A stretch of DNA of 64,000 nucleotides, taken from positions 2,902,001 through 2,966,000 of the forward strand of contig NZ_CP028918.1 of the NCBI RefSeq assembly GCF_003060865.1. Direction: 5' to 3'. The translations under genes were made by a program, and so were the position numbers. The stretch is from Gemmobacter aquarius. GTDB lineage: Bacteria; Pseudomonadota; Alphaproteobacteria; Rhodobacterales; Rhodobacteraceae. Shown one piece after another: positions 4,673 through 48,252 of the stretch. The stretch's first letter is position 1. Every line of letters starts with the position of its first letter. The notes under the pieces are model-generated. The model saw nothing but the letters and a program-made list of their open reading frames with translations. It did no database searches and had not been told where the DNA came from.

Positions 4673-5053
4673 ATGGGACGCATGGGCGACGATATCCGCG
4701 TTTTATACAATGATACCTGTCCGGTTTGCCGGTTCGAGATCGACAGCTATCGCAGGCTGGCCGAGAGCCACGGGATTGCTATGGGCTTCGATCCGGTGGC
4801 GAAGGCTGCCGACTGGGGGCTGACGCAGGACGCGGCGGCGCAGCGGTTGCACGTGGTGCTGGACGGCGAGTTGTTGTCGGGGATGGCGGCGTTCCGCGCG
4901 ATATGGGCGCGGTTGCCACGCTGGCGCTGGGCGGCGATGGTGACAGGCTGGCCGGTGGTGCGGCCCGTGATGGATTTCGTTTATGACCGGATCGCAGCGC
5001 CCGTGCTTTACCGCGCGCATCTGCGGCGGCAGGGGCGGCAGGGCGAAATCTGA
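4673..5053 (+). CDS. Thiol-disulfide oxidoreductase DCC family protein (DUF393)
   Basis: A 126-residue protein with the DCC-family signature near its N-terminus, VLYNDTCPVCRFE, whose CPVC pair is the presumed redox-active dithiol. The family is small, single-domain and of poorly known function. An in-frame ATG at 4682 is an equally possible start. The C-terminal codons GEI and the TGA stop lie inside a palindromic repeat (5043-5065), so the end of the protein is defined by that element. The last ~100 bp of the gene are repeated immediately downstream as part of a 140-bp tandem duplication. Confidence 0.82.
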   Translation: MGRMGDDIRVLYNDTCPVCRFEIDSYRRLAESHGIAMGFDPVAKAADWGLTQDAAAQRLHVVLDGELLSGMAAFRAIWARLPRWRWAAMVTGWPVVRPVMDFVYDRIAAPVLYRAHLRRQGRQGEI

Positions 5054-5235
5054 CGCAGATTTCGCGGCGGAATTTGACGCAAATTCCGGATCGTGTGGTG
5101 CGGCCCGTGATGGATTTCGTTTATGATCGGATCGCAGCGCCCGTACTTTACCGCGCGCATCTGCGGCGGCAGGGGCGGCAGGGCGAAATCTGACGCAGAT
5201 TTCGCGGCGGAATTTGACGCAAATTCCGGATCGTG
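4955..5235. repeat. 140-bp tandem duplication including the 3' end of the DCC gene
   Basis: The segment 4955-5094 is repeated directly at 5095-5235 with period 140. The only differences are a C/T and a G/A. Read in the frame of the DCC gene both are at third codon positions and synonymous (GAC/GAT, GTG/GTA). The second copy carries the last 33 codons or so of the gene plus two palindromic hairpins, without a start codon. Seen directly in the sequence. Confidence 0.95.
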
Positions 5236-5292
5236 ACGGGTGGGTGCGGAATTTGCGCCAAATTCCGGCGCGGAAAATGCGTCATTTTCCGC
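5043..5292. repeat. Palindromic hairpin cluster 1 (TG-ACG-CA family)
   Basis: Six short hairpins. Stems GCGAAATCTG (5043-5065) and CGGAATTTG (5068-5088) have loop ACG; both recur at 5183-5205 and 5208-5228 through the tandem duplication. CGGAATTTG with loop CGC follows at 5247-5267, then GCGGAAAATG with loop CGT at 5270-5292. The arms are perfectly complementary, and the last hairpin ends 3 bp before the stop codon of the GNAT gene. The first lies over the DCC stop codon. Related clusters are at 16496, 26074 and 48142. Confidence 0.93.
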
Positions 5293-5294
5293 TG

Positions 5295-5720
5295 TCAGAA
5301 GGTTAGCACCATATCGCGGTGGGGAATGCCCGCGTCGTCGTATTGCGGGCCGGTGGTGACGAAACCGAGGCGCTCGTAAAAGCCGATGGCATGGGTTTGC
5401 GAGCCGAGCTTGGCGCGGGTGATGCCGGGCATGGTGCGGAAGATTTCGACCGCTTGCCGGATCAGCGCCGCGCCGAGGCCGGTGCCCCGCGCGTCACGCA
5501 AGACGCAGACGCGGCCGATCTTGCCGGTTTCTCCCATCGCGATCAGGCGGGCCGATCCGGTGGGGACGCCGTCTACAGTTGCCAGAAGGTGGATCGCCTG
5601 ACCGTCGAGGTCGTCGAGTTCGTCGGCTTCGGGAACGCCCTGTTCGTGGATGAACACGATGCGGCGCAGGCGGCGGCAGGTTTCGATGTCGGTCGTGGGC
5701 TTGATGAGGATTTCAGGCAA
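5295..5720 (-). CDS. GNAT family N-acetyltransferase
   Basis: A 141-residue single-domain protein. The acetyl-CoA-binding region [20 protein letters not shown] (residues about 73-92) carries the R-G-x-G-x-G/A motif of GNAT enzymes, and [18 protein letters not shown] is the typical C-terminal part. It transfers acetyl from acetyl-CoA to an amine; the acceptor is unknown. [16 protein letters not shown] near the N-terminus resembles the ElaA-type subgroup. The start appears to be TTG at 5720-5718, overlapping the end of dapE by 8 bp, so the two are probably cotranscribed. A repeat hairpin sits directly after the stop. Confidence 0.88.
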
Positions 5721-6873
5721 AGTAATCTTTCAGGATGCGGCTGTAGATGGATTTCAACTGGTGGATCTGGGTCATGCTGACGCGTTCGTCGACCTGATGC
5801 ATGGTGCGGCCCACAAGGCCGAATTCCACCACCGGGCAGTGGTTCTTGACAAAGCGGGCGTCCGAGGTGCCGCCGGTGGTGGAGAGTTCCGGCGTGACGC
5901 CGGTTTCGGCCTGCACTGCGCGGGCGATCAGGGCGGACAATTCGCCCGGAGGGGTGACGAAGCTTTCGCCGGAGATCTGGATGCGGGTGGCGATGGTCAC
6001 GCCGGTTTCGGCTTCGACCTTGGCAGCCTCGGCACGCAGCCAGTCGGCGAGGGCGGCGCCCGTGTGGCTGTCGTTGAAGCGGATGTTGACGGTGGCGCTG
6101 CCTTTGGCGGGGATCACGTTGTTGGCGGGGTTGCCACAGTCGATGGTGGTGATCTGCAGGGTCGAGGCGTCGAAATGCGCGGTGCCTGCATCCAGCGTAT
6201 CGGGCAGGCGCGACAACAGTGTGGTCAGCGCCCGCATCGGGTTCTTGGCGCGGTGCGGATAGGCGGAATGGCCCTGCACGCCCTGGGCGGTGAACCATGC
6301 GGTCATCGACCCGCGGCGGCCGATCTTCATCATCTGGCCCATCGTATCGGGGCAGGTCGGTTCGCCCACGAGGCAATGCGTCATCCGCTCGCCCTGCCCT
6401 GCCATCCAGTCCAAGAGCGCCACGGTGCCATCGGTGGCATCGCCTTCTTCGTCGCCGGTGATGGCGAGGATGACGGCGCCGTCGGGGGGCGTTTCGCGCA
6501 CGAAGTCGATGGCGGCGGCAGCAAAGGCGGCTACGCCCGATTTCATGTCGGTGGCGCCGCGTCCGTAAAGCCAGTCGCCTTCGGTTTCGGCGCCGAAGGG
6601 GTCGTGCGTCCATGCCGCAAGGTCGCCCACGGGGACGACGTCGGTATGTCCGTTGAAGCCGAAGCTGCGGTTCGCGCCGCGTGCGCCCCAGCGGGCGAAA
6701 AGGTTGGGGGTGCCGTTGCGGTCGACCCGCGTGCAGGCAAAGCCCGCTTGCGACAGCAGGTCTTCGAGCAGGACCAGCGCGCCGCCTTCGGCAGGGGTGA
6801 CAGAGGCACAGCGGATCAGTGCGGCGGTCAGGGCTGCGGGATCGGTGGGGGCTGCGGGATCGGTGGGGGGCAT
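5713..6873 (-). CDS. dapE: Succinyl-diaminopimelate desuccinylase
   Basis: A 386-residue M20-family metallohydrolase. Metal-binding signatures are visible: [13 protein letters not shown] (His/Asp), [10 protein letters not shown], and the ITGDEEG stretch with the catalytic and metal glutamates. [10 protein letters not shown] marks the dimerisation domain. It hydrolyses N-succinyl-LL-2,6-diaminopimelate to LL-DAP in lysine and peptidoglycan biosynthesis, the step after those served by DapD, whose gene lies 3.5 kb upstream on the same strand. The start is placed at 6873. The N-terminus contains a duplicated 18-bp unit (6833-6868) encoding PTDPAA twice; a more internal start cannot be excluded. 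The GNAT gene overlaps its 3' end. Confidence 0.95.
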
Positions 6874-7177
6874 CGGAACCTCGGGCTGCGCGGTGCGGCA
6901 GGGATAGCGGCTTGGCGGGGCGGGGGCAAGTTGGGCGGCAAGGCCGCGCGACTGTTGCCGTTGAGTCACCCGCCCCGTGCCGCGCGACCCATCCTTTCGG
7001 ATGTTGGTGACAGCGCGGATGCGCTTCGCTACGGTGGGGGCAATAACAATGTCCCGAGGCAGGACGGTTGGGCCAATGTGCCCGTCAGAGCAGACCCGAC
7101 AGGACCGGATGCGCGTAGCGCGTTCGCGGGGCGGCCATGGCATATCCGTTTTGCACCCGGGAAGATGGGGTGTGGTG
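6874..7177. other. Gene-poor interval between dapE and the Hint protein gene
   Basis: About 300 bp between divergent genes. Open frames continue through it in several registers, but none shows family similarity, so I see no gene. It must contain the promoters of dapE (minus strand) and the Hint-domain gene (plus strand); no clear -35/-10 pair stands out in this GC-rich stretch. Confidence 0.4.
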
Positions 7178-8176
7178 ATGGTGCAGATCGGGTCGGGGAC
7201 GGACTGGATAGCGCTTTCGGACAGGGCAGGACAGACGGGCGGGGCCGATGTGGCGGACGGGCTGTTCGTGGCCGAGTTGCGGCTGCCGATCGACGGGCCG
7301 CAGGTGCTGCTTGACCAGCGCAGTGCGGACGGGGCCGAGGTGTTTTCCATCCTGCATGACGCGGCCGCCGGGCTTTCGGTGCTGCATCGCCGCGACGGTC
7401 GCCTGACGCGGCACGAACTGCCCGGGCCGTTGCCGGTCGACCGTGCGACGGCGCGGCTGGAATTCGGCTGGAATACGGGGCGGGACCTGTGGCGGCTGGA
7501 ATTCGGGCTGCTGACCGACGGTCACGGCACGGGGCTGCGGATCGAGGCGCAGGGGCGCGGGGTGCAGGGCTTGGGTGCCGGGATGCTGTCCGACCTATGC
7601 GCGGGGCGCGGGCAGCGGCATGACGCGGTGCTTTGGTTTGGCGTGACCGGCGGCGCAATGCCTGCGCGGCGGGCTTGGGTCGGGCCGAGAAGCAAGCTTC
7701 GCACGGTGCGCGGGCCGGTCGCCGCCGAAGACTTGCGGGTGGGCGAGGTGGTGGTGACGCGCAACGGGTTGGTGCCGATCCTTGGTCTCGCGCGGCATGC
7801 GGTTCCGGCGCGGGGCAGTTTCCAGCCGGTCCTGTTGCGCGCGCCGTGGTTTGGGGCTTCGGATATCCTCGTGTCAGGCGAGCAACTGGTGCGGCTGGGC
7901 GGGCCGGAGGCGGAATACCTGTTCGGCGAAGAGGAAGTGCTGGTTCCCGCGCACCTGCTGGTCGACGGGCAATCAGCGCTGGCCGAGGTGCGGCGGGCGG
8001 TGGTGAAAGGCATCACGGTCGATCTGGGCGGGGCCGAGTTGATCGAGGTGCAGGGCTGCACGCTGTGCACCGAGCCGCCCCCCGGTCTGGAGTTGCCGTT
8101 GCGGCTGCTGGACCGCTACGAGGCGGTGCCCTTGTTGGCGCAACTGGGCAGGTTGCCGCAGCGGGCGGTGGGTTAG
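7178..8176 (+). CDS. Hint-domain (hedgehog/intein-like) protein
   Basis: A 332-residue protein from the ATG at 7178. The N-terminal half (residues 1-165) is unassigned. The C-terminal half, from about [22 protein letters not shown] to the end, matches the Hint_2 domain common in Rhodobacterales surface or secreted proteins; [17 protein letters not shown] is the characteristic start of the fold. The catalytic N-terminal Cys/Ser of a splicing Hint module is not evident at the expected place, so autoprocessing is doubtful. The open frame extends upstream to 6977 without recognisable content; GTG codons just ahead of 7178 are alternative starts. It converges with the gene at 8173 with a 4-bp overlap. 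Confidence 0.72.
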
Positions 8177-8517
8177 TCGAAAAACGGGGTCATCTGGGCG
8201 ACGACGACCGAGTTTTCGTCGAGCGCGCGTTGCATCAGGGCGCGTTCCTCGGGGTCGATCTCGTCGCCTGCGGCCACGCGGTCGTCGAGCGTGCCGTAGC
8301 CCGACACATCAAGCGGCGCGAGGTCGGCCTGTTTCAGGATGGCCACGGTTTCGCGCACGGCCTCGTCCTCGTCCACGCCGGAAGCATAGATCATCAGGGC
8401 AGCACCTGTCGCCTTGGCGGGCAATCCGTCACCGGGTTTGCGGCCGACCTCGACCACCAGGGTATAGACCTGCTGCGGGCGCTTTTCCTTTTTGGGCTTT
8501 TCCGTCTCGTCGGTCAT
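8173..8517 (-). CDS. Conserved hypothetical protein
   Basis: A 114-residue soluble protein starting MTDETEKPKKEKRP, with a charged, lysine-rich N-terminus followed by the pattern YTLVVEVGRKPGDGLPAKATGAALMIYASGVDEDEAV. I recall similar small proteins in other Rhodobacteraceae, but no function is known to me. No transmembrane segment, signal peptide or metal motif is visible. The start at 8517 is chosen over the upstream in-frame codon because the conserved part begins soon after it. It converges on the Hint gene. Confidence 0.75.
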   Translation of the reverse strand: MTDETEKPKKEKRPQQVYTLVVEVGRKPGDGLPAKATGAALMIYASGVDEDEAVRETVAILKQADLAPLDVSGYGTLDDRVAAGDEIDPEERALMQRALDENSVVVAQMTPFFD

Positions 8518-8724
8518 GGGGTGGTCCTGCGTGTTTTGTGGCCCTGTTAGCACTGGCGCGGGGAAAGCGCAAAGCGTCGGGCCTCTGCAACTGGGGTTGC
8601 AGACGGGGATTTCGGGGCAGTCTGTAACCTTTGGTCAATTTGCGGCGGTGCAGCAAAGGGGCAAGTGGGGGGCACCGGAAGCGGGGCGCTTGTGCCCTGA
8701 CCGGATGCTGATGGAGAGACCCGA

Positions 8725-8979
8725 ATGAAACGCACCCTGACCGCCGTGGCGCTTGCCTTTGCCTGCCTGTCGGCCCCTGCCTTTGCCGATGGCGATGCGG
8801 TGGACGCTGCGGTGAAGGACAAGCTGACCGCGCAACTGGTTGCCGAAGGCTATGACGTCCGCAAGGTCGAGACCGAGGACGGGCTGATCGAAGCCTATGT
8901 CGTCAAGGACGGCGCGACGCTGCAACTGTGGTTCGACGCCGACCTCAAGCCGGTCGAGCATGGCGCCGAAGCGGATTGA
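8725..8979 (+). CDS. Small periplasmic PepSY-like protein
   Basis: An 84-residue protein with a clear Sec signal peptide (MKRTLTAVALAFACLSAPAFA, cleavage after AFA). The mature part has the PepSY pattern V.A.V...L...GYDV..VE.EDG..EAYVVKDG. Such proteins are often encoded beside cytochrome b561 genes, as here (9073). A good RBS (GGAGAGA) precedes the ATG. The 207 bp upstream contain an 8-bp hairpin (TCTGCAAC-TGGG-GTTGCAGA, 8584-8603) and no other gene. Confidence 0.82.
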   Translation: MKRTLTAVALAFACLSAPAFADGDAVDAAVKDKLTAQLVAEGYDVRKVETEDGLIEAYVVKDGATLQLWFDADLKPVEHGAEAD

Positions 8980-9072
8980 TCCGCGTCTTGGCGGGCTGCG
9001 CCGGTCGTAGCCCGCCGATGGTCTGATGCGAAGGGCCGCGCGGGACGTGGCCGGAAGTTAGGGTTTTGCGAA

Positions 9073-9591
9073 ATGCGGAAAATCAAAGTCTGGGATCCTG
9101 TGGTCCGCCTGTTTCACTGGTCGCTGGTCGTGGCTTTTGCCGCGAACGCCTTTTACACCAAGCCCGGGCGCGATGTGCACCAATGGGTGGGCTATGCCGT
9201 TGCGGGGCTGATCGCGCTGCGGCTGATCTGGGGGTTGGTCGGCACGCGCCATGCGCGGTTCGCCGATTTCCTGCCTTCGCCCCGCGCGGTGCTGGGGCAG
9301 TTGCGCGATATGGCGACGGGGCGGCGGCATGTGCATGTCGGCCATTCGCCGCTGGGGTCGCTGATGATCTATAACCTGTTGCTGACCATGGCCGCCCTTG
9401 CCGGGTCGGGCTATGCGATGACCACCGTCGCCTTCTTCGGCGTCGAATGGGTCGAGGAGGTGCATGTGGCGCTGGTGACTTGGGCCGAGATCAGCATCGT
9501 GGTGCATGTGCTGGCGGTTGTGGTGGAAAGCCGCAGGCTGGGGATCAACCTTCCGAAGGCGATGGTTACGGGCTACAAGACCTTGCCGTGA
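9073..9591 (+). CDS. Cytochrome b561 family protein
   Basis: A 172-residue membrane protein with four predicted transmembrane helices. The N-terminus KVWDPVVRLFHWSLV has the D-x-x-x-R-x-x-H-W motif of b-type cytochrome subunits, and further histidines suited to haem b ligation appear in DVHQWVGYA, VGHSPLG, EEVHVALV and VVHVLAVV. It probably transfers electrons between the quinone pool and a periplasmic partner. It follows the PepSY gene on the same strand and precedes a LuxR-type regulator, suggesting a three-gene unit. Confidence 0.88.
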   Translation: MRKIKVWDPVVRLFHWSLVVAFAANAFYTKPGRDVHQWVGYAVAGLIALRLIWGLVGTRHARFADFLPSPRAVLGQLRDMATGRRHVHVGHSPLGSLMIYNLLLTMAALAGSGYAMTTVAFFGVEWVEEVHVALVTWAEISIVVHVLAVVVESRRLGINLPKAMVTGYKTLP

Positions 9592-9609
9592 ACCGGAAGG
9601 ACTGGCCCG

Positions 9610-10209
9610 ATGACTGCGCCGATGGATGGCCTGAAATCTGTCCCCGAAAGTGAGACCGAGACTGTTGCGGGGGCCACGAGACGTGACATGACGCTGCGGT
9701 CCCTGCCCCATCGCGGGGACCGGCCCTATGCGCTGGTCGCGCTGATCGTGTTCCAGTGCTTTTGCACGGCGTTCTTCGTCTATGACGTGACCCGCGATCT
9801 GGACGAAGGCTTGACGAGCCTGCTGTACATGCTGCCCGAAGTGGCTGCCACGGTGGGGCTGGTGGCGGGGCTGGTCTTCGAGGTGCGGTCGCTCGTGGGG
9901 CTGTTGCAACGGCAGGCGCGGATGGAGCAGAGCCTTGGCGTGGCGTCGGGCGCATTGGCCGAGGTGATGGAGGGGCATTTCCGGGCATGGGGGCTGACGC
10001 CTTCGGAACAGGACGTGGCGACGTTCACCATCAAGGGCTGTTCGATTGCCGAGATCGCCGCGCTGCGCGGATCGGCAGAAGGCACGGTAAAGACGCATCT
10101 GAACGCGATCTACCGCAAGGCGGGGGTGCAGGGGCGCGGGCAGTTGGTGAGCGTGCTGATCGAGGATCTGATGGGCGGGCCGTTGGTGGCTTCGCCAGAC
10201 AGGTCGTGA
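9610..10209 (+). CDS. Membrane-anchored LuxR-type transcriptional regulator
   Basis: A 199-residue protein with two hydrophobic helices (about residues 38-58 and 68-92), a short helical linker, and a C-terminal LuxR-type helix-turn-helix. The last is recognisable from LTPSEQDVATFTIKGCSIAEI and GTVKTHLNAIYRKAGVQGR. No receiver domain is present, so activation is not by a standard phosphorelay; signals may come through the membrane segments or a partner. An AAGGA box precedes the ATG and it lies 18 bp after the cytochrome gene. Nested inverted repeats follow its stop. Confidence 0.85.
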   Translation: MTAPMDGLKSVPESETETVAGATRRDMTLRSLPHRGDRPYALVALIVFQCFCTAFFVYDVTRDLDEGLTSLLYMLPEVAATVGLVAGLVFEVRSLVGLLQRQARMEQSLGVASGALAEVMEGHFRAWGLTPSEQDVATFTIKGCSIAEIAALRGSAEGTVKTHLNAIYRKAGVQGRGQLVSVLIEDLMGGPLVASPDRS

Positions 10210-10229
10210 GATAACAACGGCAGGGGTTG

Positions 10230-10335
10230 CCCCGTGGCCCAAAGCCACGGGGCGCGCCCGACCCGCCCCGCCGAATCTGTTGGGGGGGGAGGGCGCACGT
10301 ATACGTGCACCCACCCCTCGGTTCGGGCGCGCCCC
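10230..10335. terminator. Nested inverted repeats between convergent luxR-type gene and dapD
   Basis: A perfect 9-bp stem (10230-10238 with 10244-10252, loop CCAAA) lies 20 bp after the regulator gene. A 13-bp inverted repeat (10250-10262 and 10323-10335) encloses a 14-bp perfect palindrome, GCACGTATACGTGC (10295-10308). The location between convergent genes suggests bidirectional termination, but no U-run follows, and the inner palindrome could instead be a protein-binding site. Confidence 0.55.
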
Positions 10336-10358
10336 TATCGGCAGCGCAATATGCGACC

Positions 10359-11186
<828 letters not shown>

Positions 11187-11266
11187 GTTTCCCCCGTTTT
11201 GGTTGGTGTCGGTCTTTGCGCCCCTATAAAGACAGGATTGCCGCCACGCAATCACGAGGGACCGCC

Positions 11267-12127
11267 ATGACCGACGACAGCCGCAGCCACCCGTTCCGCG
11301 ACAGCACGCAGGACGCAGCCGCGGCGGAACGGCTGCCCGACACCGCGCAGACGCGCGCGCCCGCTTACCGTCTGGCCTTTACCGACACCGATTTCATGAT
11401 GCGCGAGGAGTTGCGCCCCGTGCGGTTGCAGCTTGAGCTGCTGAAACCGCAGATGGTGATGGACGAGCGCGGGATCAGATCGACGGTGGTGCTGATGGGG
11501 TCGGCCAGAATTCGTGAAGGCGGGGTGCGTGAAGGCGGGGTGCGCGAAGGCGGGGCCGCTGCGGGGCTGATGCCGTGGTATGCCGAGGCGCGGCGGCTGG
11601 CGGCGATGATCACGGTGGAAAGCCTGAAAAGCTATGGCCGCGAATGGGTGGTGGTGACGGGTGGCGGGCCGGGGATCATGGAAGCGGGCAACCGGGGTGC
11701 TGCCGATGCGGGGGGCCAGTCGATCGGGCTGAACATCGTGCTGCCGCACGAGCAGGCGCCCAACCCCTATGTGACGCCGGACCTGTGCTTCAACTTTCAC
11801 TACTTCGCGATCCGCAAGATGCACTTCCTGATGCGGGCGCGGGCGGTCTGCATCTTTCCGGGGGGCTTTGGCACGCTGGACGAGATGTTCGAGAGCCTGA
11901 CGCTGATCCAGACGGGGCGGATGAAACGGGTGCCGTTCCTGCTGTTCGGTCGGGCCTTTTGGGAAAAGGTGGTGAACTGGCAGGCGCTGGTGGACGAAGG
12001 CGTGATCGGTGCGGGCGATCTGGAGCTGTTTTCCTTTGTCGAGACGGCGGAAGAAGCGATGGCGGCCATGGTCGGCGGCGGGTCGGGCGAACCCTTGGGC
12101 GACACCGCCGCAGGGCGCGCAATCTAG
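11267..12127 (+). CDS. LOG-family / TIGR00730 nucleotide 5'-monophosphate nucleosidase
   Basis: A 286-residue Rossmann-fold protein with both family signatures: [22 protein letters not shown] and [13 protein letters not shown] (PGGxGTxxE). Such proteins release ribose 5-phosphate from nucleoside monophosphates (LOG, PpnN). It is longer than minimal LOG proteins because of about 60 extra N-terminal residues. A 15-bp unit repeated three times (11513-11557) encodes REGGV repeats in an exposed loop and looks like a recent minisatellite expansion. RBS GAGGG precedes the ATG; a terminator-like hairpin follows the gene. Confidence 0.85.
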
Positions 12128-12134
12128 GCGGGAA

Positions 12135-12164
12135 GTCCGTGCTTTTTCGAGCACAGACTTTTGT
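12135..12164 (+). terminator. Intrinsic terminator candidate after the LOG-family gene
   Basis: Arms GTCCGTGCT (12135-12143) and AGCACAGAC (12150-12158) pair with one mismatch around a 6-nt loop and are followed by TTTTG. It lies 8 bp after the stop codon. Confidence 0.6.
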
Positions 12165-12323
12165 CGAGGAATCCATACTTTGGTCTGTAAAATACATTTG
12201 AACGGATATCGGGCCTCGTGGGCATGAATTTGCATGCCCGACCGGCTGGCGGATCCTTTGTGACCCGCGACCTGGCGTGAACAGGTCGGCCTGATGCGGG
12301 TGTAGCGATTGATGGAGTGTGTG

Positions 12324-15232
12324 ATGTTCGACGCGATTGTGCGCCGGTTCTGGCGCGGCTTGATGGTTCTATGTCTGTCGGTGACAGCGCTGGTTTCGCC
12401 GAGCGGGCGGGCGGAGGCTATAGGGGCTGTTCCTTTTACAGTCCGAACTCTTGGGACTTGCCAGGTTTGGTTCTGGGGCGAGTTTAATTCCTATGTTCGG
12501 TTGATCCTTCCTACGGGTGAACAATTTGCGGGAGGCACATTGTTCAGTGGCAGCGGCTTAGCGGGTGAGGCTCAAGCCATTACCGAAGCAGGCTTGGCTC
12601 AGTGTGGCCTATCCAATGTGACCATCACTTCCCAAAATGGCGCGGACTCGACCCAGCCGTCGGTCCTTACATGGGAATCATCTTCCGTGCGACAGAAGGG
12701 GGGATTTTGTATGATTACGAATATGCGTTGGTCGGCGCCACCGACACGCTAATTGTGGCAAATAGGACGGCGTTGAACACTGCTCCCACCGCCAATGCTG
12801 GCGGCAACAAGGAGGTGGGGTCGGGAAAGACTGTCACATTGGACGGTTCGGGGTCTGACCCCGACGCAGGGGCTGTTCTGACCTATTCCTGGACCGCGCC
12901 GATCGGTGTGGGAACCTTGTCGAACGCGACCTCTGCGACGCCGGTCTATACAGCGCCCAAGGTACCTGCGGGAACGTCGGATGTCGTCGTCACGTTGACG
13001 CTGACGGTCAGTGACGGCACCGCCTCGGCCACGTCGACGATGCAGGTTACGGTGAAGCCGAACACGGCTCCGGTCGTGAGTGCGGGGGGTGACCTGGAGG
13101 TCGCTTCGGGCGGGCAAGTCTCGTTGAATGCGACGGTGATCGATCCGGATGCGGGCGATGTTGCGGCGATGGGCTATGCCTGGGTTGCGACGCCGGATGG
13201 GCTTTCGTTCAACTGGAGTTCGCCAAGCCCGATGTTCACCGCGCCTGTGCTGGAGGCGAACGCAGCGGATCAGGTTTTCGATCTGACCGTGACGGCTAAT
13301 GACGGAACCAACAGCCACAGCGATACAATGCGGCTTACCGTGACGTCGAAGAAGAACGTGGCGCCTGTCGCGGTGGCGACGAGCAGCGGTGAGGTTGAGG
13401 CGGGCGGGACCATCACGCTGTCAGCGGCAGGGTCGACCGATGCCGACGAGGGTGATGTCGATTCCCTGGACTATGTCTGGGCGCAAACCGGGGGACCGAG
13501 TGTCTTGCTGTTGGGGTCCAACGCGGCCGAGGCGTCGTTCGGTCTGCCCACTCCGCTGCCGACGAATGCGGGTGGCGATCTGGTGTTCACCGTCACGGTG
13601 ACCGACAATGACGGGGCGTCCGACACCGAGACGATCGTGGTCGAACTGCCCGAGCCGCCTGCTTTGGTGGTTACGGCGACCGCGTCGGACGACGCTGTCG
13701 TGACGGGCGGGTTTGTCGGGCTGGAGGCAACCGTATCGGGTGCAGACCCCGAGAGCACGCTGACCTATCAGTGGGAGACGGAATCCGACGTGATGATCGA
13801 CGACCCGGCGATGCAGAATACCTATTTCTTCGCGCCGAACGTCGCCACCAGCATCACGGCCGAGTTCGTGCTGACCGTGACCGAAACCACTGCGAAGAAC
13901 ACGACCCGCACGGCACGCTCGTCGGTATTCGTGACCATCGGACCGAACACGGCACCGGTGATCGTGGTGACCGGGCCTACGACGGCTAAGGAAGGCGAGA
14001 GCGTGACGCTGGACGCCTCGGGATCGACGGATCCGGACGAGAGCAATCTGCGCATCCGCTGGGTCCAGACCGCAGGGCCGACGGTGCTGGAGGAAGAGAT
14101 CGTGAGGGTTGTGGAGAGTGCGGCCCTGACGGAGGATCAGCTTCCGCCGACGTCGAGGGGGGCTGCGATCAGCTTTACCGCCCCCGCCGTGCCAGAAGGC
14201 GAGACGCAGGTTTCGCTGGTGTTCGACGTGATGGTGTCCGACGGGGTCGACACGTCGACCAAGACGGTGACGGTCACGGTGACGCGCGCGGGAGCCGAGG
14301 AACCGGGGACCGATGACGACGAGCGCGAAAAGGTGATCGCCGAAACCGAGGCGCAGATTGACCAGTTCGTGCAGACCCGCATGAACAACCTGATCGGCAC
14401 GCAGCCCGACCTTGGCTCGGTGGTCTCGGGCGGTGACGGGACGGCCAATGTCACCATGTCGTCGATGGGGGGTCAGGTCGACCTCGCCACCGCGCCGGAT
14501 CAGCCGGTCTGGCTGCGGTTGAAAGGCAACTGGTCGACCGTCGGCGGGGCCGAGGGCGACTATGTGCTTGGCGCTGCCGGAACGCATGTGATGGTCGGCG
14601 AAGGGCTGGCGCTTGGGGTCATGGCGCAGGTGGACCATCTGAAGACGGTGGACGGGTTGGCCGTGGCCGAGGGCACCGGTTACCTGATCGGGCCCTATGT
14701 CGTGGCCAAGTTGCCCGACCAACCGCTGGTGGTGCAGGGGCGGCTGCTTTACGGCGCGTCGCAGAACACCTTCTCGCCGCTGGGCACGTTCGAGGACAGT
14801 TTCGACGCCACGCGGCTTTTGGCGCAGTTCGGGGTGTCGGGGCAGATTGCCAAGGGCGATGTGGTCTGGAAACCCAGCCTGCAAGCCGCCTATGCACGCG
14901 AACAGACCGATGCCTATACTGACGGCTTGGGCAATCCGATCGGGGCGGGCGACAACGCGGTGGCGCAGGTTTCGGTCGGGGTCGAAGTGACCTTTCCGCT
15001 GCCGGTGCCTGCGGGGGCCATGACGGCGACATTTGGTCTGTCGGACATCTGGGCGGGCAGCGTCAGCGGCGGGCCTGCGGTTTACGAAGGGCATCGGGGC
15101 AAGGTCAGCTTTGGCGTGAACCGCGTCTTCGGGTCGGGGGCAGAGCTGTCGCTGACCGGAAGCTACGACGGTCTGGGCGCCGACGGCTACGAAAGCCTTG
15201 GTCTGGATCTGGTGTTCCAGCACAAGTTCTGA
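12324..15232 (+). CDS. Autotransporter with PKD/cadherin-like repeats (apparent -1 frameshift near 12.66 kb)
   Basis: The first frame, from ATG 12324 (alternatives 12309, 12312), gives a signal peptide (VRRFWRGLMVLCLSVTALVS to RAEA) and a domain that stays plausible to about NGADSTQPSV, then stops at 12752. The frame one base away carries GIIFRATEGGILYDYEYALVGATDTLIVAN and continues to 15232. One gene with a one-base indel between about 12640 and 12690 explains both. The rest has five Ig-like/PKD repeats, each opening with an N-T-A-P-type stretch (starts near 12774, 13062, 13353, 13650 and 13947). Then follow a short helical linker and a ~280-residue beta-barrel ending in VFQHKF, the terminal Phe expected of outer-membrane proteins. 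It probably displays the repeats on the cell surface. It could be a pseudogene, a sequencing error or phase variation. Confidence 0.75.
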
Positions 15233-15240
15233 AAACCGGT

Positions 15241-15263
15241 TGCGGGGGGTCAGGCCCCCCGCA
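15241..15263. terminator. Bidirectional terminator between the autotransporter and ycaQ
   Basis: A perfect 9-bp stem TGCGGGGGG (15241-15249) with CCCCCCGCA (15255-15263), loop TCAGG. It starts 8 bp after the autotransporter stop and overlaps the stop codon of the convergent glycosylase gene. Confidence 0.65.
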
Positions 15264-16455
15264 GCGAACCTTGCAGCCAGTCGGGCAGGTATTCGACGCG
15301 GTCGCAGCCTGCAAAGACCGCAAGGCGGTGCAGTTCGGCATCGAGCCGTGCGAGGCGCTGTTTGGTGGTGGTAACGCCCGCCTCGGGCCAGAAGGCGCGG
15401 ACGCGCAGGGTGTTTTCGGCGCGGAAGGCCTTGGCGTCGATGCGGCCGATGAGGGTGGCACCTTGGAGCACGGGAAAGACGTAATAGCCGTAGCGGCGTT
15501 TGGCTTCAGGCACGAAAACCTCGATCCGGTAGTGGAAGCCGAACAGGTGTTCGATGCGGTTCCTGTCGCGCAGGGCGGGGTCGAAGGGAGACAGAATCCG
15601 CAGGCGGGCGGGCGGTTCGGGCGGGGTTTCGGTCAGCGTGGCGGGAAAGGCCAAGGCGCGGCGCGGGGTGCCATCGGCACCTGCCACGGTGATTTCGGTG
15701 ACCTCACCGCTTGCGCGGGCGGTGGCGACCCAAGCCTTCACCTCATCGGGGCGCAGGGCGTTCCAGTAGCCGCGCAGTTCGGTTTCATTGGCAAAGCCGA
15801 GATGCGAGAGGGCCGAGCGGCAGGCCCAATCGGTCAGGGCGCTTGCATCTGGGGCGGGGCTGCGATGGGCGGCGGGGATGACGCGTTCGGTCAGGTCATA
15901 GACCTTGCGAAAGCCGTCGCGGCGGGTGATCGCCAATTGGCCGGTGCGCCAGAGCCATTCGAGCGCGGTTTTCGACGGGTGCCAATCCCACCAGCCGCCT
16001 TTGCCACGCACCTCGCCCTCGCCCACATCGGAGGTCGATACGGGGCCGTCGCGGGCGATGCGGTTCAGGATGGTGTCGAATTGCGCGGCATAGCCGTCGC
16101 GGAACCAGCGCTGCCAGTTGTCGCGCAGGCGCAGCGCATCGCGTTCGAAGCGGTGCTGCCAGAAGGGGTAAAGCCGCATGGGCAGGATCGAGGCGTCATG
16201 CGTCCAGTGTTCGAACAGGGCGCGGTCGGTTTCGAGCAAGCGTTTCAGAGCGGGCGGGCGGTAGCTTTGGCGGCGCGACCACAGGATCATGTCATGCGCG
16301 CGGGCGACGGTGTTGATGCTGTCGATCTGCACGAAACCGATGCGGTCGATCAGCGCAGCAAGGTCGGCACCGGTGGCGGGGCCGGAGGAGGATTCGGCCA
16401 GCGCGTGACGGTCGAGGAAGATGCGGCGGGCGGTGGCGTTGTCGATGCGGGTCAT
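15250..16455 (-). CDS. Winged-helix DNA glycosylase of the YcaQ/AlkZ family
   Basis: A 401-residue protein matching the HTH_42 (DUF1006) family. The catalytic Q-x-D motif of the YcaQ branch is seen as FVQIDSI (Gln43, Asp45), and family landmarks HDMILWSRR, FEHWTHDASILP and PFDPALRDR follow. Members excise alkylated bases and unhook interstrand cross-links. The start at 16455 gives the family-typical MTRIDNATARRIFLDRH; the longer open frame reaching 16902 runs through the palindromic repeats and is rejected. Divergent from the Kef-type gene. Confidence 0.9.
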   Translation of the reverse strand: MTRIDNATARRIFLDRHALAESSSGPATGADLAALIDRIGFVQIDSINTVARAHDMILWSRRQSYRPPALKRLLETDRALFEHWTHDASILPMRLYPFWQHRFERDALRLRDNWQRWFRDGYAAQFDTILNRIARDGPVSTSDVGEGEVRGKGGWWDWHPSKTALEWLWRTGQLAITRRDGFRKVYDLTERVIPAAHRSPAPDASALTDWACRSALSHLGFANETELRGYWNALRPDEVKAWVATARASGEVTEITVAGADGTPRRALAFPATLTETPPEPPARLRILSPFDPALRDRNRIEHLFGFHYRIEVFVPEAKRRYGYYVFPVLQGATLIGRIDAKAFRAENTLRVRAFWPEAGVTTTKQRLARLDAELHRLAVFAGCDRVEYLPDWLQGSLRGA

Positions 16456-16495
16456 GGCAGCGAGGGGACGCGGGCGGCGGCCTTGCGTCAACGGG

Positions 16496-16635
16496 GAAAT
16501 TTCTGACGCAGAAATTTCGACCGGAATTTGACGCAAATTCCGGAGGCGCTGCGGAAAAGTTCGCGCTTCGCCAGCAACGGGAGCGACCCGAATTTCTGCG
16601 TCAGAAATTTTGCCGGAATTTGCGTCAAATTCCGG
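16496..16635. repeat. Palindromic hairpin cluster 2 (TG-ACG-CA family)
   Basis: Four hairpins: GAAATTTCTG-ACG (16496-16518) and CCGGAATTTG-ACG (16521-16543), then, after 47 bp, AATTTCTG-CGT (16591-16609) and CCGGAATTTG-CGT (16613-16635). The two halves have opposite loop orientation. It fills most of the 307-bp gap between the divergent glycosylase and Kef-type genes; no gene is seen in that gap. Confidence 0.93.
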
Positions 16636-16762
16636 TCGGGGAACGGGTTTACCGCGTTTTGGGTGCTTGAACCCGGGCAGAGTGTGGTTAGCTGCACCAT
16701 ACACGGAGTCATAGACCGAGCGCCCCGCCCGTCCGGCGGACAAACCAGTTCGAGGAGAACCG

Positions 16763-19032: not shown

Positions 19033-19082
19033 TCCGTAATGCCTTGCCCATGGTCCGCCGCGATTTCTAGGGTTTAGGGCAG

Positions 19083-19751
19083 ATGACCGGCGGCGAACAG
19101 GGTGTGACTTGGAAGGACGGGGTAATCCCCGTCTCGACCCGTTTCGACGACCCGTATTTCTCGCTGGCCGATGGTCTGGCCGAGACGCGGCATGTGTTTC
19201 TGGCGGGCAACGGGTTGCCGGACCGGCTGGCGGACGGGTTCCATGTGGCCGAACTGGGGTTCGGGACGGGGCTGAACCTGCTGGCGCTGCTGATCGCATG
19301 GGCGGGAACGGGGCGGGCGGGGACGTTGCGCTATACCAGCTTCGAGGCCTATCCGCTGGATGCGACCGACATCGCCCGCGCGCTGCGCCATTTCCCCGAG
19401 GCGCAGGCGGTGGCAGGGCCGTTTCTGGCTGCGTGGGACAGTGGAAAGCGCCGCTTTGCGCTGGCGGGGATCGAGGTCGAGGTGGTGATCGGCGATGCCC
19501 GCGACACGCTGCCCGCATGGGGGGCCTGCGCGGATGCGTGGTTTCTGGACGGGTTTTCGCCCGCCAAGAACCCTGAATTGTGGTCGCCGGAACTGATGGC
19601 CGAGGTCGGCGCGCATACGGCCACGGGTGGCACCTTTGCCACCTATACCGCAGCGGGCCATGTGCGCCGGTCGCTGGAAGCGGCGGGTTTCGCCGTCGAA
19701 CGCGTGACCGGCCACGGGCGCAAAAGACATATGACGACAGGACGGAAATGA
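19083..19751 (+). CDS. mnmD: tRNA (5-methylaminomethyl-2-thiouridine)-methyltransferase
   Basis: A 222-residue SAM-dependent methyltransferase matching the MnmC N-terminal (DUF752) domain. ELGFGTGLNLLALL is the SAM-binding loop, DAWFLDGFSPAKNPELWS is the diagnostic family motif, and GGTFATYTAAGHVRRSLEAAGF follows. It methylates nm5s2U to mnm5s2U at the wobble position of tRNAs. It exists here as a stand-alone protein, with an FAD partner encoded divergently. The stop overlaps the next gene by 4 bp (ATGA). Confidence 0.92.
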   Translation: MTGGEQGVTWKDGVIPVSTRFDDPYFSLADGLAETRHVFLAGNGLPDRLADGFHVAELGFGTGLNLLALLIAWAGTGRAGTLRYTSFEAYPLDATDIARALRHFPEAQAVAGPFLAAWDSGKRRFALAGIEVEVVIGDARDTLPAWGACADAWFLDGFSPAKNPELWSPELMAEVGAHTATGGTFATYTAAGHVRRSLEAAGFAVERVTGHGRKRHMTTGRK

Positions 19752-26073: not shown

Positions 26074-26189
26074 GAAGATTTTCTGCGATAATCTTCCGCA
26101 ACGAATTTTCTGCGAAAATTCAGCGGTCGAACGGGAGGCCTGAATTTTCGCAGAAAATTCGTTGGCCGGATTTTTCGCAGAAAACTCCG
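26074..26189. repeat. Palindromic hairpin cluster 3 (TC-GCA-GA variant)
   Basis: Four hairpins: GAAGATT(T)TC-TGC (26074-26096, one internal mismatch) and GAATTTTC-TGC (26103-26121), then GAATTTTC-GCA (26142-26160) and CGGATTTTTC-GCA (26167-26189, one mismatch). The second and third are exact reverse complements of each other over 19 nt. The loop trinucleotide differs from the other clusters, but the 2+2 inverted layout is the same. The last hairpin abuts the pdxJ stop codon. Confidence 0.9.
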
Positions 26190-44170: not shown

Positions 44171-44174
44171 GTAG

Positions 44175-44208: not shown

Positions 44209-44571
44209 TTACATCCCGTGCAAGGGGCGCTGCCCGCGCCGCCAAGATACCGCGGCTTTTGACGCCGCCTGCATCAGGCCGCGCCAGACCGGCAGGGCCA
44301 AGGCAAGGTCGGGTTCCGGCACCAGCAGCGTCAGATGGGTTTCCCCGTTCACAATGGACAGGCGGCCCCTTTGGCTGATCTTCCAGTCGGACAGGGCCGC
44401 TTCGGGGGCGCGGACGTCGAAGCGTTGGGTCAGCAGCACGCCATCGGCCAGCGTTGCGGTGAATTCGGGGGCCGAGGGGCCATCGCCCCGCGCATAGACC
44501 AGGGGCGGGGCCAGTTCGACACCGGCGAAGCCTGCGCGGGTCAGGGCTTGGGCGAGGTCTTCGAGCGTCAC
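44209..44571 (-). CDS. Small conserved hypothetical protein downstream of smc
   Basis: A 120-residue soluble protein (TLEDLAQALTRAGFAGVELAP near the N-terminus). Its ATG overlaps the smc stop (ATGA), so it is probably translated with smc. The C-terminus is basic (SWRRGQRPLHGM). I do not recognise a family. Confidence 0.65.
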   Translation of the reverse strand: MTLEDLAQALTRAGFAGVELAPPLVYARGDGPSAPEFTATLADGVLLTQRFDVRAPEAALSDWKISQRGRLSIVNGETHLTLLVPEPDLALALPVWRGLMQAASKAAVSWRRGQRPLHGM

Positions 44572-47500
44572 GCGACCAGAGCCTCGGCTTTTTTCAAATC
44601 GACGGACACGAGTTGGCTCACACCCTGTTCCTGCATCGTAACGCCGAACAGCCGGTCCATCCGCGCCATCGTCACCGCGTGGTGGGTGATGACCAGAAAG
44701 CGCGTGTCGGTGCGGCGGGTCATTTCATCCAGCATGTCGCAGAAACGGGTGACGTTGGCATCATCTAGCGGGGCGTCGACTTCGTCGAGCACGCAGATCG
44801 GCGCGGGGTTGGCGAGGAAGACGCCGAAGATCAGCGCAAGCGCCGTCAGGGTCTGCTCGCCGCCCGAGAGAAGCGACAGGGTGGCGAGTTTCTTGCCGGG
44901 CGGTTGGCACATGATTTCAAGGCCAGCTTCCAACGGGTCGTCGGATTCGACCAGCACGAGGCGGGCTTCGCCGCCGCCGAACAGGTGGGTGAAGAGCGTC
45001 GAGAAATTGGCGTTGACCTGTTCAAAGGCGGTCAGCAGGCGTTCGCGGCCCTCTTTGTTCAACCCTGCGATGCCCGAGCGCAGTTTCTTGATCGCCTCTT
45101 CGAGGTCGATCTTTTCGCGGGCCAGCGTGTCGTATTCTTCCGAGACGGTTTTCGCGTCTTCTTCCGCCCGCAGGTTGACCGCGCCCAAGGCTTCGCGCTG
45201 GCGTTTCAGGCGGTTCACCTCGGCGTCCAGCGTTTCGGCGTCGGGCATCTTGTCGGGGTCGGTGGCTAGCGTGCTGAGCAGTTGTTCGGGGGTGGCTTCG
45301 GTTTCCTCGAGGATGCGTTCGGCGCCGTAGGCGACGGTTTCGCGGGCGGCATCGGCGCGGGCTTCGGCGCGGGCGCGGGCTTCGCGGGCCTCGCCTGCCG
45401 AGCGTTCGGCGTCGCGTTCGGCGTCTTGGGCTGCGCGAAGGGCGGCTTCGGCTGCGGCCAAGGTTTCGACGGCGGCACGGCGGCGGGCTTCGGCGGCGTC
45501 GATGGCTTCGGCCAACTCCTCGCGCTTGATGGCGATTTCTTCGGGGGCGGCGCTGGCTTCGGCCAGTTCTTCGGTCGTTTCGGCTTTGCGTTCGGCCAGT
45601 TCGGCAATGCGGCGTTCGGCGGTTTCAAGGCGGTGCTTCCAGCCCGACAGTTCCTTGACCGCCTCTTGCCGCCGCCGCACGCGGGCTTCGCCTTCGCGGC
45701 GGAGTTCGTCATGCGCCGAGCGGCGGGTGAGCATGGCAAGGCGGGCGGCTTCGACGGCCACGCGGGCGGCTTCGACGGCGTTGCGGGCGGCGTCGAGGTT
45801 CGGAAGTTCGGCGGCCTGCGCTTCGGCCTCGCGCAGGCGGGCGCGGGCGGACATCGCCTCGTCCTCATAGCGCGAGACGGCGAGGGTGGCGGCTTCCAGC
45901 TTTCCGGCGGCGATGGAGCGGTCGGCCTCGGCCCTGCTGGCGGCGCGGTTTGCTTCGGTCACGCGGGCATCGGCGGCGCGGCGGGCATCGCGGGCCATCT
46001 GGTCGGCGCGGGCAAGATCGGACAGGCGGGCTTGCAGCGATTCATGGGCCTGGCGTGCGCCATCGGCACGGGCGGCGACGTCTTCGAGGTCGCGCTTCAG
46101 CTGCACGAGGCGGTTGAGTTGTTGCAGGCGCAGGGCGGCGGCCGATGGTGCGTCTTCGGCACCGGCACGGAACCCGTCCCAGCGCCACAGGTCGCCTTCG
46201 GCGCTGACGAGACGTTGACCCGGCAAGAGAGCCGCTTGCAGCGCGGCGCCTTGGTCGCGGGATATAAGGCCGATCTGCGACAGGCGGCGGGCCAGAACGG
46301 CGGGGGCGGTGACATGGGCGGAAAGCGGGCTTGCGCCTGCGGGAAGGGGCTGGCTGTGGTCGTACGGTGCAAGAGAGGCCCAGCCGGAACGCGCGGCGGC
46401 GTCGATTTCGGGCGCGCGCAGGTCATCGGCGAGGGCGGCACCAAGCGCCTTTTCATAACCCGGCGTGACGGTGAGGCGGTCGAGCAGTTGCGATCCGGCC
46501 AGTGCCTCGCGGTCGACAAGTCTGGCTAGGGCGGCGACTTCGGCGCGCAGGGCGTTGGCCTCGCCCTCGGCGGAGGAGCGGGCGGCGCGGGCTTCGGCTT
46601 CGCGGCTTTGGGTTTCGGCGCGGGCGGCTTCGGCTGCGGCCAGCGTATCCTCGGCGCGTTCGGCAAGGTCGGCGGCGGATTCCTGCGCCTCGGTCGCGGC
46701 GTCATAGGCTTCGGCGGCGGCGGTCAGGGCTTCGGTCGCGGTGTCGACGGTTTCGCGGGCGGTCGCCGCCTGCGTTTCGGCGCGGTCGAGCGTGGCGCGG
46801 GTGTCGGACAGCATGCGCTGCGCCGATTGGTGGCGGGCGGCGAGGCGGGCCGAATCCTCGGTGGCTTGGGCGAGCAGGGTTTCGCGGTCCGACAGCAGGG
46901 CACCGGCTTCGCGCGCCACTTCGGCGGCTTCGGCAAGGCGGTCGTCTTGGCCGTCGCTGGCGCGGGCGAGCTGTTCGATCTCCCATTCCAGCCGTCCGAT
47001 GGTTTCGCCCGCGTCGCGGTTCAGACCGGCCTCGCGCTCCATGTCGCGGGTCAACTGGTCGATGCGGCCGCGCAGGGTTTCGATCATCTGGCGGGCGCGG
47101 GCCTCCTGATCGCCCAGCGCGTCGCGCTGCACGGTCAGGCGTTGCAGCACGGCCGAGGCAATCGCCTCTTCCTCGCGCTTGGCGGGAAGCGCGTCTTCGC
47201 GGGCTTCGCGGGCCTTGCCGGCAGCGCGGGCCGCGCTTTCGGCCTGCGATGCGGCGACGAGGCGGTCGCGCAGCGCACTTTCCGCCTCGGCCCGCGCGAT
47301 TTCGGCCTCGCGCCAGCGGCGGTAGAGCAGCATCCCCTCGGCGCGGCGCAGGTCTTCGCCGATCTCGCGGTAGCGGGCGGCCTGTCTGGCCTGACGGGTC
47401 AGGGTCGAGAGTTGCTGCGCGAGGGTTTCGAGCACATCGTCGACGCGGGTCAGGTTATGTTCCGCGCCTTGCAGTTTGAGTTCGGCTTCATGGCGGCGGG

Positions 47501-48050
47501 CGTAAAGGCCGGAAATTCCTGCGGCTTCTTCCAGCACGCGGCGGCGGGATTTGGGTTTTGCGTTGATCAGTTCGGAAATCTGGCCCTGCCGCACGAGGGC
47601 GGGCGAATGGCTGCCGGTCGAGGCATCGGCAAACAGCATCTGCACATCGCGGGCGCGCACGTCCCGCGCGTTGGCCTTGTAGGCGGAACCGGCATCGCGG
47701 GTGATGCGGCGGATGATCTCGATCTGGTCGGCCTCGTTGAAACCTGACGGGGCGAGACGGTCCTGATTGTCGATCACCAGCGCCACTTCGGCGAAGTGGC
47801 GCGCACCGCGCGTGGCGGCACCGGCAAAGATCACATCCTCCATCCCGCCGCCGCGCATCGCGGTGGGGCGGTTTTCGCCCATGACCCAGCGCAGGGCTTC
47901 CAAGAGGTTTGACTTGCCGCAGCCGTTCGGGCCGACAACGCCGGTCAGCCCATCGTGGATCACCAGATCCGTGGGGTCGACGAAGCTTTTGAAGCCGTTG
48001 AGCCGGAGGCGGGTGAAGCGCAAAGGGGTGTCCTTGATTCCCGATGTCAT
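44568..48050 (-). CDS. smc: Chromosome partition protein Smc
   Basis: A ~1160-residue SMC ATPase. The N-terminal head has GPNGCGKSNLLEALRWVMGE (Walker A). Long coiled coils rich in Ala, Glu and Arg, with a hinge near the middle, follow. The C-terminal head holds LLSGGEQTLTALALIFG (ABC signature) and ICVLDEVDAPLDDANV (Walker B). It organises and segregates chromosomes. Start at 48050 gives MTSGIKDTPLRFTRLRLNGF; an in-frame ATG at 48083 would add 11 residues, and the RBS does not decide between them. It is divergent from the FMN reductase, across hairpin cluster 4. Confidence 0.95.
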   Translation of the reverse strand: MTSGIKDTPLRFTRLRLNGFKSFVDPTDLVIHDGLTGVVGPNGCGKSNLLEALRWVMGENRPTAMRGGGMEDVIFAGAATRGARHFAEVALVIDNQDRLAPSGFNEADQIEIIRRITRDAGSAYKANARDVRARDVQMLFADASTGSHSPALVRQGQISELINAKPKSRRRVLEEAAGISGLYARRHEAELKLQGAEHNLTRVDDVLETLAQQLSTLTRQARQAARYREIGEDLRRAEGMLLYRRWREAEIARAEAESALRDRLVAASQAESAARAAGKAREAREDALPAKREEEAIASAVLQRLTVQRDALGDQEARARQMIETLRGRIDQLTRDMEREAGLNRDAGETIGRLEWEIEQLARASDGQDDRLAEAAEVAREAGALLSDRETLLAQATEDSARLAARHQSAQRMLSDTRATLDRAETQAATARETVDTATEALTAAAEAYDAATEAQESAADLAERAEDTLAAAEAARAETQSREAEARAARSSAEGEANALRAEVAALARLVDREALAGSQLLDRLTVTPGYEKALGAALADDLRAPEIDAAARSGWASLAPYDHSQPLPAGASPLSAHVTAPAVLARRLSQIGLISRDQGAALQAALLPGQRLVSAEGDLWRWDGFRAGAEDAPSAAALRLQQLNRLVQLKRDLEDVAARADGARQAHESLQARLSDLARADQMARDARRAADARVTEANRAASRAEADRSIAAGKLEAATLAVSRYEDEAMSARARLREAEAQAAELPNLDAARNAVEAARVAVEAARLAMLTRRSAHDELRREGEARVRRRQEAVKELSGWKHRLETAERRIAELAERKAETTEELAEASAAPEEIAIKREELAEAIDAAEARRRAAVETLAAAEAALRAAQDAERDAERSAGEAREARARAEARADAARETVAYGAERILEETEATPEQLLSTLATDPDKMPDAETLDAEVNRLKRQREALGAVNLRAEEDAKTVSEEYDTLAREKIDLEEAIKKLRSGIAGLNKEGRERLLTAFEQVNANFSTLFTHLFGGGEARLVLVESDDPLEAGLEIMCQPPGKKLATLSLLSGGEQTLTALALIFGVFLANPAPICVLDEVDAPLDDANVTRFCDMLDEMTRRTDTRFLVITHHAVTMARMDRLFGVTMQEQGVSQLVSVDLKKAEALVA

Positions 48051-48141
48051 ATGGTCCGGCCAGACGGGAGCCAAGTCAACCATTGCGCCCCGCTATATGG
48101 GCGGGTTGCGCGGCTTATCCCCAAGATGTTGGGGCCACAGG

Positions 48142-48252
48142 GCGGAATTTGACGCAAATTCCGCGACGATTTCTGACGCAGAAATCGGTGGTGCGCGGGT
48201 GGCCAGCGGAATTTGTGTCAAATTCCGGCGCGGAGTTTGCGTCAAACTCCGC
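48142..48252. repeat. Palindromic hairpin cluster 4 (TG-ACG-CA family)
   Basis: Four hairpins: GCGGAATTTG-ACG (48142-48164) and CGATTTCTG-ACG (48167-48187), then CGGAATTTG-TGT (48207-48227) and GCGGAGTTTG-CGT (48230-48252). The last differs from the first by a paired change, A to G in one arm and T to C in the other, so the stem is conserved while the sequence is not. Located between the divergent smc and FMN reductase genes. Confidence 0.93.

Follow-up and report, generated by a model that had tools for sequence, protein, structure and literature searches.

The main family of short hairpins on this chromosome belongs to one genus of Rhodobacterales and forms dozens of four-hairpin elements, mostly directly behind stop codons. 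Its loop and pairing are constant, the letters of the arms vary in paired fashion and neighbouring stems are kept distinct, which suggests that the separately folded hairpin, and not its sequence, is what matters. Judged from sequence comparisons, the family is probably a REP-like element passed on mostly by vertical descent, with selection for separate stem-loops of conserved loop and a putative action at transcript ends. The preferred reading in full, held with somewhat less than even confidence, is that these are chromosomal, genus-restricted REP/BIME-like elements in which the separate stem-loop is the unit kept, and that they are read as folded hairpins, likeliest as stem-loops at transcript 3' ends. 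The usual definition of REPs rests on their sequence, and there is debate over the function for which selection maintains them. In this family the stems vary, loop and folding are constant and neighbours avoid shared stems, so that "structure, not sequence" becomes directly testable. Each genome supplies dozens of natural variants, orthologous sites are available from several species, and amplified copies serve as a relaxed control; the ordinary GTAG-REP system of the same genome offers a built-in comparison.

Hairpins in the Window

The window, i.e., the whole stretch of 64,000 nucleotides that was analysed, is part of contig 1 in a four-contig genome of 4.2 Mb. All 18 short hairpins of the original prediction were present where it had placed them, six in cluster 1 and four in each of clusters 2, 3 and 4. 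Family A (core TGACGCA, 23-nt hairpin) accounts for 14 of them and family B (core TTTTCTGCGAAAA) for the other four. The hairpins in the window exceed chance: perfect palindromes with arms of at least 8 around a 3-nt loop numbered 19, 16 of them within the clusters, compared with 0–5 in each of 10 Markov-1 simulations.

Cluster 1 contained only family-A hairpins. The first two (5043..5065 and 5067..5089, plus strand) have the loop ACG, and the TGA in the first loop (5051–5053) is the stop codon of a DCC1-like ORF (4673–5053). Duplicates of both occur at 5183..5205 and 5207..5229 (plus strand). Two minus-strand hairpins follow, one at 5246..5268 with the minus-strand loop GCG and one at 5270..5292, 2 nt from the end of a convergent GNAT ORF (5295–5720, minus). 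An identical 2+2 inverted layout had been proposed for every cluster; this holds as the general quartet form, but cluster 1 is 4+2, from a 140-bp tandem duplication (4955..5235, plus strand, 2.0 copies, 98% matches) that copied the end of the gene together with the first two hairpins. A similar tandem duplication with a period of 220 bp was seen at G000:C1:1281480 (G000 is the host genome).

Clusters 2 and 4 were family-A quartets between divergent genes. Cluster 2 comprised H1 (16496..16518, arm GAAATTTC) and H2 (16521..16543) on the plus strand and H3 (16589..16611, outer pairs broken) and H4 (16613..16635) on the minus strand, flanked by AlkZ-like and Na/H exchanger genes. Cluster 4 comprised H1 (48142..48164) and H2 (48166..48188) on the plus strand and H3 (48206..48228, minus-strand loop ACA) and H4 (48230..48252) on the minus strand, flanked by smc (44568–48083, minus) and an FMN-reductase-like gene (plus).

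Cluster 3 contained the four family-B hairpins: 26074..26096 (plus; TTTTCTGCGA core, one stem mismatch), 26101..26123 (plus), 26140..26162 (minus; plus-strand core TTTTCGCAGAAAA) and 26167..26189 (minus), the last flush with the end of pdxJ (26190–26948, minus). This cluster had been described as having switched its core. The TC-GCA-GA core is there, but TG-ACG-CA and TC-GCA-GA mark two separate dispersed families. By the ORF calls of this study, all hairpins in the window lie outside coding sequence except for the TGA in the first loop of cluster 1, in line with the original claim.

Copy Number and Architecture

Both families are dispersed over the genome. The family-A sequence TTTGACGCAAA had 82 sites in the host genome, all on the main chromosome (contig 1) and none on the other three contigs, and the family-B sequence TTTTCGCAGAAAA had 109; the reversed control gave 0 in each case. 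A covariance model from 14 family-A hairpins had at least 170 host matches at E<=0.01, with 150 of 2205 first-look candidates scored. The TGACGCA heptamer itself is not unusual, occurring 78 times in 400 kb (across 200 permuted versions the median was 36 and the 95% point 126). No palindrome core was seen more than once in 120 kb sampled from other host contigs.

Elements were collected from 706 kb of the chromosome, sampled in part at even intervals and in part near sites already known. In total, 177 family-A hairpins were found, of which 170 were kept in 46 elements and seven isolated ones were dropped by judgement. The loops of the 170 were ACG (158), GCG (8) and ACA (4), shares that lean to the consensus because the finder allowed at most one core mismatch. 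In the standard element, a quartet, a first pair of 23-nt hairpins at a spacing of 24 nt is followed by a middle spacer, often of 14–17 nt, and by two hairpins with inverted loop. Spacing within a half was 24 nt, and 25 nt in one half (cluster 2). This ++-- layout was found in 41 of the 46 host elements after variant hairpins, which keep the loop with another closing pair (e.g., TT-ACG-AA), had been added at the expected place. Stems are 9–10 bp and loops 3 nt; the hairpins share the loop and a CG foot, and arm positions 4–8 are variable.

Pairing Within Stems

Stem positions 2–10 of the 170 hairpins paired nearly always (9 exceptions in 1530 cells, with a finder demanding 8 of 10 pairs), and positions 4, 5, 6 and 8 alternated among G-C, A-T and T-A. 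Because of the finder's demand, the count was repeated on exact TGACGCA heptamers with no stem demand at all. Altogether, there were 273 such heptamers, 160 within 60 nt of an element and 113 elsewhere. Near elements, 150 had 7 of 7 stem pairs, seven had 6 and three had 3; away from elements, 0–5 stem pairs were found. Among 85 distinct host hairpins, 0.979 of the cells at positions 2–10 paired, compared with 0.657 when the 3' arms were shuffled (maximum 0.689 over 500 shuffles) and 0.28–0.48 when the arms were slid. Together with the paired double changes at orthologous sites described below, these values bear out the claim that structure and loop are kept while the arms drift.

Neighbouring Hairpins and Folding

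Adjacent hairpins exclude one another's arms, a rule that is new here and absent from the original prediction. In 101 complete quartets from four genomes, all five variable arm letters were shared by H1 and H2 once (12.9 expected), by H2 and H3 once (20.2 expected) and by H3 and H4 never (12.7 expected). Sharing between H1 and H4 was 11 against 12.5 expected, and the non-adjacent pairs H1-H3 (21 vs. 12.2) and H2-H4 (19 vs. 13.6) were above expectation. As the four genomes are related, the test was repeated for each: identical neighbours made up 1 of 123 pairs in the host (17.7 expected), 0 of 54, 0 of 66 and 1 of 60, each below all 5000 permutations. Family B breaks the rule in cluster 3, where both inner hairpins have the arm GAATTTTC.

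With neighbours that differ in their arms, the adjacent hairpins of a half fold separately. In 39 elements the two hairpins of a natural half did so in 97–100%, compared with means of 88–91% for shuffled arms and 5–13% for identical arms; under the RNA model, the top-scoring of 30 shuffles of the H3-H4 half reached the natural value of 0.97. Whole elements behaved differently. All four hairpins were in the minimum-energy fold of 0 of 39 elements in the RNA model and 12 of 39 in the DNA model, and natural arms had no advantage over shuffled ones in this respect (RNA, 0.00 vs. 0.07; DNA, 0.31 vs. 0.28). Forcing the RNA model to form all four hairpins, a poor test, gave a mean ln P of -17.1 for natural and -19.6 for shuffled arms (sd 1.6).

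It had been proposed that a cluster can fold either as separate hairpins or as one long stem. The RNA model does predict the long stem, but H2 and H3 avoid shared arms, so the long stem is apparently not conserved. As the selected fold it was rejected, since the H1-H4 arms lacked excess likeness and H2-H3 avoid likeness. Kissing or co-varying loops were also rejected: loop variants in one element did not co-occur above expectation (six pairs, permutation p 0.27–0.88). Closing-pair variants in H1 and H4 co-occurred, as a bare count, four times against 1.3 expected.

For the neighbour rule alone, an explanation compatible with the other readings is possible though doubtful, namely that neighbours differ through slippage, which removes identical copies, or through descent from a small number of copied founder combinations, and not through selection for separate folding. 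Two identical 23-nt palindromes side by side should be unstable, and direct duplications and arrays occur in these genomes. Founders could also leave a pattern as strict as that of the arm GAATT, which was in one of H2 and H3 in 82 of 101 quartets and in both in one. Several observations oppose this explanation: the rule holds without GAATT (with the commonest arm removed, the host had 0 identical neighbours vs. 5.0 expected, p 0.003), it extends to near-alike neighbours (a match at 4 or 5 of the 5 positions in 8 cases vs. 34.2 expected), the inverted pair H2-H3 also obeys it, and long direct repeats persist in arrays.

The elements may embody a structural code in non-coding DNA, a speculative idea of limited likelihood. 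A putative protein would read the constant three-base loop on a stem of free letters, and four self-complementary modules, orthogonal to their neighbours, would have their letters rewritten with independent folding preserved. If so, relatives with other loops (L018, L379 and family B) would be parallel dialects of one system.

Position at Gene Ends

Gene context was taken from a simple in-house ORF caller (87% coding). The 46 host elements were located between convergent genes (21), between genes in one direction (18), between divergent genes (6, including clusters 2 and 4) and inside a called ORF (1). The convergent share exceeded that of intergenic gaps of at least 20 nt from the same stretches, including the gaps that hold elements (68 of 418; Fisher p 1.3e-5). 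For 45 elements, 45 of 60 flanking 3' gene ends lay within 20 nt (median 3 nt), compared with 2 of 30 flanking 5' ends (median 77 nt). Ten flanking 3' ends reached 11 nt into the element, where the core TGA is the stop codon. The ++-- elements, the 3'-end position and the convergent genes support the REP/BIME-like layout of the original prediction and a niche at gene ends.

In the preferred reading the kept unit would be a short stem-loop folding alone. Four such stem-loops, the last two with the loop inverted, would make the element alike from either side. The nucleic acid would be read as folded hairpins, likeliest in the transcript, where 3'-end stem-loops working from either direction could block exonucleases, end transcription or insulate, and a putative protein might contact the constant loop.

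The six elements between divergent genes count against a role at transcript ends, as does the lack of a T-run after the stems in the element sequences inspected, which therefore did not have the form of intrinsic terminators (GC-rich stem and T-run). A consensus scan of window positions 1–20000 gave no intrinsic terminators at clusters 1 and 2, and Rfam gave no match at gathering score within the window. G-U pairs were rare among the non-Watson-Crick cells of the stems, which is unusual for RNA helices and counts against reading as RNA, and the preference of the RNA model for the long stem in whole elements counts against separate hairpins in RNA. At one-direction sites, imperfect hairpins numbered 4 of 36 in the near half and 4 of 36 in the half away from the gene end; the distal half is as intact as the near half, a pattern not predicted if only the near half acted as RNA.

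That both halves are intact whatever the direction of transcription speaks for a possible role at the DNA level, in which DNA hairpins or cruciforms would be extruded or bound by protein and would organise the chromosome or absorb supercoils at gene ends. The few G-U pairs and the confinement of TTTGACGCAAA to the main chromosome favour such a site, and so does the folding of H2-H3 as separate hairpins, predicted in 95% of natural versus 69% of shuffled cases by the DNA model and in 59% versus 42% by the RNA model. This reading is nevertheless rather unlikely: a flush stop-codon position is not needed for it, its partner protein is only hypothetical, and DNA-binding proteins that read sequence would conserve the stem letters, whereas here the loop is conserved.

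Orthologous Sites and Amplified Copies

For at least 32 of the 46 host elements, the corresponding flanks in at least one of the relatives G003, G011 and G013 also enclose an element; the comparison covered 83 relative clusters, a subset of those present in these genomes. In eight cases the flanks could be matched but the rule applied here assigned no counterpart; these include the smc site, which the rule overlooked, and a questionable cluster located within smc. Two sites are empty in the host, one at 793.5 kb, where G003, G011 and G013 each have an element, and one at 1686.8 kb, where G003 has one. In the more distant G007, three of seven sampled elements were at a site in common with the host. 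Element sites thus turn over, slowly.

Orthologous sites are the stronger test of covariation. There were 55 orthologous element pairs from 32 sites, and the count was restricted to those in which both members are complete quartets, 37 pairs from 23 sites (four species, 148 hairpin pairs, 1332 cells). The predicted arm covariation was recovered: 96 two-sided changes still paired, compared with 22 one-sided changes and 10 two-sided changes that left the cell unpaired. Counted as states over the 23 sites, there were at least 82 paired changes and 26 non-paired states. Loop differences in the 148 hairpin pairs fell on the first base 38 times, the second once and the third 11 times.

Half-elements were tandemly amplified at L287, L290 and L295 (G003) and L317 (G011), with periods of 83, 102, 110 and 112 bp, up to 6 copies and many decayed stems. 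When four tandemly amplified clusters were compared with the quartets of the same two genomes, 16 of 45 amplified hairpins were imperfect versus 5 of 160 in the quartets (Fisher p 2e-8, with copies that are related and not independent). Quartets were less clean elsewhere, 17 of 164 hairpins being imperfect in the host and 16 of 80 in G013.

Template switching during replication is an improbable source of the pattern. The elements would then be non-functional remains, palindromic only because one arm was copied onto the other. The accessible text of PMC8794818 reports that template switching creates stems and fixes pairing, and by that account it alone could keep stems paired. The excess of two-sided over one-sided changes with rare intermediates fits such a process, and the imperfect G013 quartets indicate that constraint is not uniform. 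It would not, however, conserve an unpaired loop, whose middle base differed in 1 of 148 orthologous hairpin pairs, and it leaves the avoidance of neighbouring arms unexplained; the amplified copies of the same genomes, though not independent of one another, lose pairing.

Distribution and Transposase Genes

TTTGACGCAAA was found in all 19 genomes of the genus at 2 to 82 copies (10 in G005 and 28 in G014), and in 28 of 42 other genomes of the same search at 1 to 11 copies, with up to 4 in the reversed control. When the model was applied under strict filters, matches appeared in 3 of 120 genomes of the taxonomic family, two in the host genus and one in another. The single match outside the genus was within a four-hairpin group with mixed loops. 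Locus L379 (G124, another genus) has four hairpins in a 2+2-like arrangement with the loops ACG, GCG and GCG (inverted) and a longer one. A Fuscovulum MAG contained two hairpin groups with similar arms and other loops, one of them directly after smc.

Genes for the REP-associated tyrosine transposase (RAYT), which had been raised as a possible driver, were searched with profile NF047646. Ten were found in 6 of the 19 genus genomes, two of them in the host, and 13 genomes, some of them incomplete, showed none. The latter included G003, G011 and G013, with 126, 106 and 88 family-A model matches. The host genes (G000:C1:769229-769660 and 2469532-2469963; L384 and L391) scored 187.6 and 163.8 bits, and both were flanked by GTAGGGTG-type GTAG palindromes, not by family-A hairpins (the GTAG ends of L391 were read by eye). 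PF01797 misses both; with that profile 0 of 19 genomes passed the cut-off, and the absence of RAYT genes from the genus was rejected as a false negative, a weak G008 match having scored 150 bits with NF047646. In G008, GTAGGATGGGC palindromes lie just past the end of the RAYT gene (L197:1375-1956, minus), and the same palindrome type occurs in L018.

No link was seen between RAYT genes and family A in the sequences compared. That the elements are mobile REPs spread at present by RAYT is very improbable, for although layout and niche resemble REPs and BIMEs, the host has two RAYT genes and sites differ between species, the palindromes beside those genes are of the GTAG type, the 13 genomes that showed no RAYT gene have the core like all 19, and many sites are common to several species.

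Comparison With Known Repeats

The BIMEs of enterobacteria are said to be bound by gyrase, IHF or DNA polymerase I. Like family A, they combine inverted palindromic units, with both orientations in one element; by the general description of BIMEs used here, family A differs in that each half consists of a tandem pair of hairpins, spaced at 24 nt, whose arms differ. REPs are defined in the accessible text of PMC12306157 as extragenic, short, palindromic sequences in many copies per genome, with highly similar units and a common consensus motif. Family A is likewise extragenic (one of 46 elements inside a called ORF), short, palindromic and multicopy, but beyond the loop and CG foot its units vary at arm positions 4–8.

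The accessible text of Di Nocera et al. (2013, PMC3733652) describes CGTC-REPs of alphaproteobacteria with a stem of 8–9 bp, a loop of 4–5 nt and an unpaired CGTC tag at one stem end, the tail mostly fitting CCA. For the two species presented there, most conv-REPs are no more than 20 bp from each of the two 3' ends, so the gene-end niche was already known. CGTC-REPs as described there resemble family A in being short palindromes, often oppositely oriented, at 3' ends and often between convergent genes, with no dedicated transposase known. Compared by description, without CGTC consensus figures, family A differs: no outer tag was seen, GACG/CGTC is in and beside the 3-nt loop with TGACGCA centred, the stem is longer and the loop shorter, and the inner stem letters are free.

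GTAG-REPs with RAYT (PMC3733652; NCBIfam NF047646), in the same accessible text, are palindromes near stop codons, as in family A, and their motif can supply the stop codon. In that system the RAYT gene is flanked by the same repeats, which is not so for family A, whose genome also has GTAG palindromes of different look; no GTAG foot was seen in position profiles covering 75 outer and 75 inner family-A hairpins. Quartets of loop-conserved, arm-free hairpins whose neighbours differ match neither of the tag families (GTAG or CGTC), and no description of the hairpin family was found in the literature searched, which had few subscription papers.

Other hairpin sets were seen in the genus. In the pdxJ-acpS gap, family-B-like hairpins occur at the same site in G005 (L209), G018 (L214) and G014 (L215); in G005 both have TTCGAA where the others have TGCGAA, a concerted loop change at this one site only. 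Samples from the host and G007 contained a third set of long hairpins (e.g., L365 and L372) with TTC..GAA cores and very different arms, often grouped in G007.
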